From Pseudobdellovibrionaceae bacterium (lineage in GTDB: Bacteria; Bdellovibrionota; Bdellovibrionia; Bdellovibrionales; Bdellovibrionaceae), in the NCBI GenBank assembly GCA_021731025.1, contig JAKFYD010000026.1, positions 1 through 40,999 on the forward strand: 40,999 bases of DNA. The letters run 5' to 3'. The translations under genes were made by a program, and so were the position numbers. Numbering within the stretch: position 1 is the first letter of the stretch; each line of letters starts with the position of its first letter. Positions 15,583-17,582 of the stretch are shown here, piece after piece. Under the pieces are notes generated by a model, which did not search any database, was not told the origin of the DNA, and saw only the letters and a program-made list of their open reading frames with translations.

Positions 15583-16098
15583 ATGGTCCAGGGAGCGCGT
15601 ATTCTAAAGCAACTCATCAAAGAGGTACCCGATTTTCCAAAACCGGGAGTAAGCTTCAAAGACATTAGTCCACTGTTACGCTCGCCTTCAGCCCTGCGAG
15701 AAATTTGCGACACTTTCGAAAAAAAAGTAAATCTTAGTGAAATAGAATTGATCGCCGGCATCGAATCGCGAGGATTTATTTTGGGCATGCTCCTAGCGAC
15801 TCATTTTGGTAAGGGTTTTATTCCATTGCGCAAAGCCGGTAAACTTCCTCCCCCAGTTTGTCAGAAATCCTATTCTCTCGAGTATGGAGCAGCAACTTTA
15901 GAGTGTCAGCCAGGGCAAGGAAAAATTCTAATTATTGACGATGTGCTGGCGACCGGAGGAACACTGCAGGCAGCCATCGCTCTTGCTCAGCAAGCGGGCT
16001 ATGAAGTTGTTGATGTCGCCGTTTTGATCAACCTTAAGTTCTTAAACAAAATGAAGTTTAGTGATCGTGAAATCATCTCTTTAATCGAGTACACATGA
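15583..16098 (+). CDS. apt: Adenine phosphoribosyltransferase
   Basis: The 171-residue protein has the normal Apt length. It has DFPKPGVSFKDISPLL near the N-terminus, a family hallmark, then AGIESRGFILG and the PRPP-binding loop ILIIDDVLATGGTLQAA (Asp119 and Asp120, with ATGGT at residues 123-127). It converts adenine and PRPP to AMP plus pyrophosphate in the cytoplasm. The ATG at 15583 has no strong SD just upstream. The stop overlaps the start of the next gene as ATGA, coupling it to an MTA/SAH-nucleosidase-like enzyme that would release adenine. The pair therefore forms a short adenine-salvage route, fittingly close to metK. Confidence 0.96.
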   Translation: MVQGARILKQLIKEVPDFPKPGVSFKDISPLLRSPSALREICDTFEKKVNLSEIELIAGIESRGFILGMLLATHFGKGFIPLRKAGKLPPPVCQKSYSLEYGAATLECQPGQGKILIIDDVLATGGTLQAAIALAQQAGYEVVDVAVLINLKFLNKMKFSDREIISLIEYT

Positions 16099-16688
16099 TA
16101 ACAACAAAGTGGAAGCCTTCCGACATTTTAATCATTATGGCCTTGCCCTCAGAATCCCAAGGGCTTTTTGAGGCGGAAAATATTGAAGTCAACTATTGCG
16201 GTATCGGAAAAGTAAACGCCGCCTTTCGCGCCACAGAACTAATTTTGAAACACCAACCTTCACGCATTCTAAACCTAGGCACAGCCGGCAGTCACAAATT
16301 TAAAACTCACGAAATGATCGAGTGCAAATCCTTCGTGCAAAAAGATATGGATATCACTCCACTAGGATTCCCCTTGGGCCAAACTCCACTCGATGACATT
16401 CCAGGAGCCATCGATGTACAGACTTTTACCGAATTAAAAAAAGGAATCTGCGGAACCGGCGACGTCTTCGAAGTAGGCACCCCACGCCTACCCTGCGACC
16501 TAGTCGACATGGAAGCCTACGCCATGGCCAAAGTGTGCAAAAAATTAAAAGTAGATTTCACAGCCATAAAATACATAACCGACGGCTCAGACCCCCACTC
16601 AAAAGATGATTGGATAAAAAATCTCAAGCCCGCAGCCGAAAATTTGTTAAAAATTTACCAGCAAATCGTCAGCGCAAATTCCAAGTAG
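16095..16688 (+). CDS. MTA/SAH nucleosidase-like (PNP/UDP phosphorylase superfamily) enzyme
   Basis: This 197-residue protein has the purine nucleoside phosphorylase/nucleosidase fold signatures. An N-terminal IIMALPSESQGL resembles the AMxxE catalytic strand of MTA/SAH nucleosidases (Glu20). The glycine-rich ILNLGTAGSH, the substrate-binding VDMEAYAMAKVC, and a late TDGSDP containing the conserved catalytic Asp follow. At 197 residues it is shorter than typical nucleosidases (about 230), with a reduced central region. It would hydrolyse 5'-methylthioadenosine or S-adenosylhomocysteine to adenine plus a thioribose or homocysteine product. Translational coupling to apt supports an adenine product. 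Other superfamily members, such as futalosine hydrolase, remain possible. Confidence 0.75.
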   Translation: MITTKWKPSDILIIMALPSESQGLFEAENIEVNYCGIGKVNAAFRATELILKHQPSRILNLGTAGSHKFKTHEMIECKSFVQKDMDITPLGFPLGQTPLDDIPGAIDVQTFTELKKGICGTGDVFEVGTPRLPCDLVDMEAYAMAKVCKKLKVDFTAIKYITDGSDPHSKDDWIKNLKPAAENLLKIYQQIVSANSK

Positions 16689-16710: not shown

Positions 16711-16822
16711 TTCCAAGAAAGTGCCTTCTCCCGCACGGCAGGCCTTTGCGGCCCAGGAAGGGCTCAAGCAAGAGCCCATGGATGGGCGAGCCTGCCGTGC
16801 GGGAGAAGGCACTTTCTTGGAA
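16711..16822. repeat. 112-nt palindromic element with perfect 33-nt inverted arms
   Basis: Bases 16711-16743 and 16790-16822 are exact reverse complements over 33 nt, with a GC-rich core (CCTTCTCCCGCACGGCAGG). The 46-nt centre holds two alternative small hairpins: GGGCTC/GAGCCC (16760-16765 with 16772-16777) and GCCCA/TGGGC (16774-16778 with 16783-16787). The element starts 22 nt after the nucleosidase gene. It has no T-run on either side, so it is not a standard terminator, and its composition differs from the AT-rich surroundings. It resembles a dispersed palindromic (REP- or MITE-like) element; copy number cannot be seen here. The rest of the 301-nt gap (16689-16989) shows only a TATAAA at 16895-16900 without a clear -35 and a small CGCC/GGCG hairpin near 16872-16884. 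Confidence 0.85.
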
Positions 16823-16989: not shown

Positions 16990-17361
16990 ATGAAACTGAC
17001 TTTTGCTTTTATTCATCTTGATCACTCGGATTCATTGCAAAACTACATTCAAAGCCATATGGACCGAATCGCTATGTTTTTACTTAAAGGAGGTTCGGGG
17101 CAAGTGAATATCAGCAAGAAAAAGAAGCTCTTTCACGTCGATATTTCGATCCAGACACCTTTAAAATACTACCGGGCGCAGTCTTCTCATTTTGATATTT
17201 ATTCGGCGACAGATCAGATAGTCACAAAATTGGAAAAACAATTTTTAAGAACCCGCAAGCTCAACCAAAACCATAAAAAATTCGAACTTTCAAAATCGGG
17301 TCGGTTAAACCAAATGAACGAGCGCTTCGAGATTAAAGCGCGTTACCGAAAAGCCGCATAA
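16990..17361 (+). CDS. hpf: Ribosome hibernation-promoting factor (short HPF/RaiA family)
   Basis: This 123-residue protein has the HPF/RaiA beta-alpha-beta-beta-beta-alpha fold. It opens MKLTFAFIHLDHSDSLQNYI, a strand and helix as in HPF. A central strand pair follows, with KKKLFHVDISIQTPL, then the basic second helix YSATDQIVTKLEKQFLRTR that contacts 16S rRNA. The C-terminal dimerisation domain of long HPF is absent, so it is the short type. GGAGG at 16980-16984 supports ATG 16990. Short HPF binds the 30S decoding region in stationary phase. In many proteobacteria it sits right after rpoN; here it is far downstream as a single-gene unit ended by a strong terminator. Confidence 0.87.
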   Translation: MKLTFAFIHLDHSDSLQNYIQSHMDRIAMFLLKGGSGQVNISKKKKLFHVDISIQTPLKYYRAQSSHFDIYSATDQIVTKLEKQFLRTRKLNQNHKKFELSKSGRLNQMNERFEIKARYRKAA

Positions 17362-17460: not shown

Positions 17461-17582
17461 GAGCTCGCCTAAAAATTTAAATCTCTGCGTTCTCCTCCCT
17501 CGAGCTCCCTGCGACTTGCTGTTAGCAAGCCTCAGTCGCTCTCGGTCGTGCGGCCTTGATCTTTAAATTTTTAGACAAGCTC
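17461..17582 (+). promoter_or_regulatory. Large structured leader (21-bp outer stem) before metK
   Basis: Bases 17461-17481 pair with 17562-17582 over 21 positions with only two mismatches, including an uninterrupted CCTAAAAATTTAAA-type block. Inside, GCGACT (17511-17516) can pair with AGTCGC (17534-17539), and CTTGCT-GTT-AGCAAG (17515-17529) forms a tight hairpin; the two overlap, so they may be alternatives. The structure ends 30 nt before the GTG start of metK, and no T-run follows. It could be a 5'-leader regulatory RNA or a palindromic insertion. I do not recognise it as a known SAM riboswitch class. Confidence 0.55.

Follow-up and report, generated by a model that had tools for sequence, protein, structure and literature searches.

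Long RNA hairpins dispersed through intergenic DNA are known from the Correia/NEMIS, ERIC/RU-1 and YPAL/RU-2 elements, which are non-coding, measure about 100–170 bp and show empty sites (PMC2229807). The elements described here share these general features. In the known groups, however, either the whole element or its inverted ends are conserved, whereas the present elements keep their centre and vary in their arms from copy to copy. NEMIS hairpins have been proposed as RNase III substrates (PMC2229807). A comparable resemblance exists to REP/BIME sequences and to the GTAG/CGTC-tagged REPs, which are dispersed extragenic palindromes forming stem-loop families (PMC3733652). REPs are 20–40 bp long with a conserved end tag, in contrast to the present elements, which are untagged, about 110–190 bp long and built on copy-specific stems.

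Two further systems are relevant. CsrB/RsmY-type RNAs likewise display A(N)GGA motifs in the loops of small hairpins (PMC7652899), but each copy of the element considered here has only two such motifs, carried on a long perfect stalk and scattered over the genome, and its binding is predicted. Families of stem-loop containing sequences have been described as a systematic class of repeated sequences (PMC2267715, PMC1590033), and the present elements are similar in that sense; the families in PMC2267715 are presented with no mention of Bdellovibrio or of conserved loops, and the conservation pattern reported here is the opposite one. A description of a fixed head on variable arms was not found in the open-access literature.

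The window element and its genomic setting

The window is the whole stretch of DNA analysed, 40,999 nt from a Pseudobdellovibrionaceae bacterium. Within it, two 33-nt arms at positions 16711–16743 and 16790–16822 (TTCCAAGAAAGTGCCTTCTCCCGCACGGCAGGC) are exact reverse complements on either side of a 46-nt loop, or head (16744–16789), as the original prediction had stated. Complementarity breaks off exactly at both arm limits, on either side. GC content is 61% in the arms and 63% in the loop compared with 43% over the whole window, in agreement with the earlier description of GC-rich arms in AT-rich DNA. The segment 16690–16840 folds as RNA at −95.7 kcal/mol, versus −47.2 for shuffled sequences (z −12.8).

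All features of the locus lie on the plus strand. The element begins 22 nt past the stop codon of a PNP_UDP_1 family nucleosidase gene (MTA/SAH nucleosidase-like; 16095–16688; Pfam PF01048, E=6e-18) and ends 167 nt ahead of the start of a gene for a ribosome hibernation factor of the S30AE/HPF family (16990–17361; Pfam PF02482, E=2.7e-12), which is followed by metK. No T-run follows the arms on either strand (flanks AAGTT and GGAGTTGAG), as had also been noted at the outset, and no promoter clearly belonging to the element was found. Rfam returned nothing above the gathering threshold for the window element; lenient scans gave only spurious matches to eukaryotic miRNA hairpins, and neither TwoAYGGAY nor CsrB was among their results. 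Searches of plasmids, phages and viral contigs produced no significant match. The integron attC ends (RYYYAAC / GTTRRRY) are not present, the window arm starting with TTCCAAG.

Conserved heads on copy-specific arms

For the genome that contains the window, 1.55 Mb (about 45%) was scanned letter by letter for inverted repeats and the remainder was covered by head similarity only. Counting inverted repeats whose arms measure 18 bp or more and whose loops span 20–150 nt, the scanned portion holds 16, where a second-order Markov model predicts none; long inverted repeats of this size are not chance occurrences in this genome. Four head families emerged from the scan and from the HMM and whole-genome searches that followed it. 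Family A has five copies: the window element, C5:17484 and C5:74931, which are HMM matches to its head, and two more on another contig (C29:34025 and C29:34441). Its heads are 44–46 nt and its arms 27–34 bp long. Family B comprises 15 full copies and some fragments, with heads of 76–80 nt and arms of 20–23 bp. Arms of about 21 bp are found in family C (about 8–10 copies) and in family D (4 copies, one with shorter arms). The window itself contains a second hairpin element, a family B copy on the minus strand (17461–17582; HMM E=8.7e-20) that sits between the HPF terminator and metK and has 21-bp arms with two G.U mismatches and an 80-nt head.

The repeated unit is the loop. Neither the whole window element nor its 33-nt arm has a second copy elsewhere in its own genome, and a 16-mer of the arm gave 120 chance matches in the genome contigs, none of them within a hairpin. 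The arm as repeat unit was rejected because it is single copy. The reading as a dispersed palindromic element is right, with five family A copies in this genome, once the loop is taken as the repeat in place of the arm. A search for the arm had been offered as the test of dispersal; since the loop is repeated and the arm unique, it would wrongly have spoken against a dispersed element.

Arms of family A pair at 97% of positions with their own partner and at 39% with the arms of other copies. Because the MAFFT alignment of the A copies places gaps in the arms, a script was used to obtain these values, and family B served for the formal pair count. Arms of families B and C are partly conserved in their inner half (cross-pairing 74–85%) and free in their outer half. 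Families A–D thus share one design: the head is common to the copies, and the arms are specific to each copy yet match themselves. Exact arm identity had been taken as a sign of recent formation or of selection on both arms; exact or near-exact arms turn out to be the rule for whole families rather than a mark of this copy. A shared head on differing, self-matching stems suggests that the elements work as folded RNA and that the window element is not a one-off oddity. Arm lengths in this genome and in G021, few as the data are, group near 21–23, 33, 44, 56 and 68 bp, approximately whole A-form turns.

The design extends to relatives. A 14-mer from the window loop, GCCCATGGATGGGC, has several copies there, and its reversed control was never found. 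In G021, a genome from the same taxonomic family, the 14-mer copies fall within the loops of a second, longer type of hairpin: conserved loops of 48–52 nt are borne on perfect arms that differ in sequence and measure 56, 68 and 44 bp, and the loops show compensatory changes (CTCTGTGG/CCACAG versus CTCCGCGA/TCGCGG). A related head with 46-bp perfect arms is present in G002, another genome of this taxonomic family, and G041 has related hairpins with imperfect arms. Other hairpins were seen in the course of these searches. About 100 bp from the 56-bp hairpin of G021 lies a member of a different head family (L194:1111–1315), with 58-bp perfect arms and an 89-nt loop. Related hairpins in G041 (L294:6482–6596) and G050 (L356:1312–1482) are located just upstream of the same gene, apparently a flagellar hook-associated one; their arms are partly similar and altered on both sides, and they may be an ortholog pair. 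A four-copy repeat in G039 (L197, L200, L202 and L204) contains two CATGGATG hairpins in another architecture, and in G031 (L142:1485–1550) ACCCATGGATGGGC is found next to a AACAGGATGTT hairpin, close to the CsrA SELEX consensus.

The elements also appear to move. The empty site in relatives, looked for on the suggestion of the original prediction, was found at other copies: when the same-genus genome G001 was searched with the flanks of the A–D copies, eight comparable sites without the element were found (A, B, C and D sites). At the clearest of these (L232/L337), convergent genes abut at GGCTAGTTG in G001 and are split by a B element in G000. The nucleosidase–HPF gene pair of the window is present in G006 and G024 with a short gap and no long hairpin. 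At L301:14880–15110, a family C element is nested within a B head and the B apical hairpin has been lost. The empty sites in G001 and this nested copy indicate that the elements are dispersed and have recently been mobile. Filled and empty sites in relatives are a property of MITEs, and to this extent the MITE-like reading holds, if only loosely. The elements differ from MITEs in that one copy does not share its terminal inverted repeats with the next, as the family A pairing values show, and in that no direct repeat that would represent a target-site duplication was seen when the five A copies were inspected at their borders.

The folding strand and the origin of the arms

When a transition hits a paired site, one strand is left with G.U and the other with A.C; a mismatch bias therefore marks the strand that folds. 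Pooled over families A–D of the window's genome, the arms contain 666 Watson–Crick pairs, 16 G.U, 1 A.C, 12 transversions and 2 indels, and the excess of G.U over A.C on the sense strand gives a two-sided p of 2.7e-4, with the qualification that the counts come from related copies and the events are not independent. The bias is seen whichever way the neighbouring genes run. The window copy has no arm mismatches, so that the evidence on the strand is supplied by its relatives, and family A contributes only two of the G.U pairs. In the family B alignment, 97.8% of positions are paired and 20 pairs have changed on both sides; the covariation score is 0.438, against 0.146 for shuffled alignments (0/500) and 0.045–0.124 for slid partners, again among related copies. 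The predicted B fold resembles a ladder, made of single pairs with tandem G.A mismatches, beneath a covarying apical stem. The 16 to 1 ratio and the covariation in family B argue that a single strand is selected to fold, and that strand is most likely RNA. The locus had originally been compared both to a DNA cruciform and to an RNA processing signal; the RNA signal fits better, because the arm mismatches are nearly all G.U on one strand.

The same strand-specific pairing would be expected if the selected strand were single-stranded DNA, for example a folded transposition intermediate used by a Y1 transposase (IS200/IS605 or RAYT-like) acting on a non-autonomous substrate. G.T would be tolerated as G.U is, and an asymmetry independent of flanking-gene orientation is what selection for mobility would produce; REP elements are thought to be substrates of TnpA_REP (PMC8266576). 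The ends of the present elements nevertheless vary among copies and lack the constant GTAG or CGTC tag, and we regard a single-stranded DNA intermediate as improbable. Far less probable still is an ordinary bidirectional terminator or a structure in the HPF leader. Such a structure would suit a position between two same-strand genes, 22 nt past a stop codon, but neither side has a T-run, a terminator scan gave only a weak match on the opposite strand and within the head, Rfam offered only the spurious miRNA hairpins, and the same gene pair occurs in G006 and G024 without such a hairpin. The related idea that the arms are old terminator stems with a head inserted in the loop was rejected because T-runs are absent and arms reach 68 bp. 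A chimeric inverted repeat made during assembly or amplification is the least probable explanation of all: long perfect inverted repeats are a known class of artefact, but these heads recur with covarying changes in several independent genomes, near-complete single-contig ones included.

A more serious alternative places the origin of the palindrome in DNA. A mobile head would acquire its arms when it inserts or when a replication fork stalls, through fold-back or template-switch synthesis, the template for one arm being either the opposite arm or the target; the arms would then be perfect because they are re-made, and no function would require it. The main support comes from the arm borders. 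In families B, C and D, many copies meet at their right end the stop codon of an opposite-strand gene, which falls 2–6 nt outside the arm in seven and inside it in four of the 21 copies listed. At one B element (L319:11985–12107), convergent genes both end within the arms in the same ..SKPL*, as though the end of one gene were a copy of the other's, and one D element (L300:14597–14773) has an arm starting within the CCA terminus of a tRNA-Arg gene. These gene-end contacts suggest that one arm can be copied onto the other at the DNA level. Arms of up to 68 bp are moreover free of mismatches and different in every copy, and perfect arms of 56–68 bp and differing length would be hard to keep by point-by-point selection on RNA, a further hint of copying in DNA. 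Against this, a 16 to 1 preference for G.U over A.C is unexpected for double-stranded DNA, the inner arms of families B and C are inherited with the element, as their cross-pairing shows, and the C arms nested in the B head are not derived from B sequence. The nested copy and the inherited inner arms likewise weaken the view that each insertion copies its arms from the target. A purely DNA-level palindrome is therefore possible, though on balance doubtful.

Predicted roles of the folded RNA

The window loop can form two mutually exclusive sets of stems, GGGCTC/GAGCCC with GCCC/GGGC on the one hand and GCCCAGGAAGGGC with GCCCATGGATGGGC on the other, as had been recognized from the start. Two small hairpins on the plus strand of the head are of interest for protein binding. 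Hairpin 1 (16750–16763; GGCCC-AGGAA-GGGC) places AGGA in its loop, within CAGGAAG, and hairpin 2 (16774–16787; GCCC-AUGGAU-GGGC) presents an ANGGAN hexaloop on a stem that covaries in the alignment of the five A copies. ANGGAN is the high-affinity loop of RsmE/CsrA, and CAGGA(U/A/C)G is the CsrB repeat (PMC7652899). Two A(N)GGA motifs occur in 5/5 A copies of this genome; loop 1 reads CAGGA(A/U/G)G and loop 2 is an ANGGAN hexaloop. In their alignment, the columns CCAGGA.GGC and CCA.GGA.GG are invariant, and the stem letters flanking the second motif vary from GCC/GGC to ACC/GGU and GCCC/GGGC. All five copies can adopt the two-hairpin fold, and the minimum-energy fold puts both GGA motifs in hairpin loops in only two of them. 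The window copy is not one of these: its minimum-energy fold adopts the alternative inner stems, in which the two GGA loops are not displayed, so their joint presentation there is a prediction.

The csrA gene (PF02599) is present in this genome and in 40/40 relatives; its presence is necessary but, being common to every genome checked, does not discriminate. GGA loops are limited to family A, being absent from families B and C. Because family B instead forms its G.A ladder, CsrA binding cannot explain all four families, and we propose it, as a prediction from motif and fold, for the family A heads alone.

The window element is probably a non-autonomous, dispersed structured-RNA element, with a putative role as RNase III substrate and CsrA-binding platform. 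Its plus-strand RNA would consist of a 33-bp stalk, free in sequence and maintained in its pairing, topped by a conserved head that can fold into hairpins 1 and 2, each with an A(N)GGA loop. The element would be transcribed between the nucleosidase and HPF genes, where the stalk could supply double-stranded RNA of sufficient length for RNase III and may protect or separate the two messages. The head would bind CsrA/RsmA through its A(N)GGA loops, and the scattered copies could titrate CsrA or bring it to particular transcripts. For the observations as a whole, we consider the best explanation, and a reasonably likely one, to be an intergenic element that is dispersed and non-autonomous and gives rise to a folded RNA with predicted RNase III and CsrA roles. 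A bolder extension, tentative and in our judgement unlikely, would be a class of mobile structured RNAs with inverted conservation, in which the recognition head is fixed and a self-complementary stalk is remade or exchanged in each copy at lengths near whole A-form turns (about 21–23, 33, 44, 56 and 68 bp); family A would then spread CsrA decoys, and RNA might even be the mobile intermediate.

Repeat finders look for repeated sequence and only the short head repeats here, so most of the length of such an element stays hidden; similar families with a short repeated head may be overlooked in other genomes. The elements constitute a natural experiment in the upkeep or renewal of long, perfect double-stranded RNA stems, and their scattered copies may be an instance of repeats that titrate or recruit a global RNA-binding regulator.
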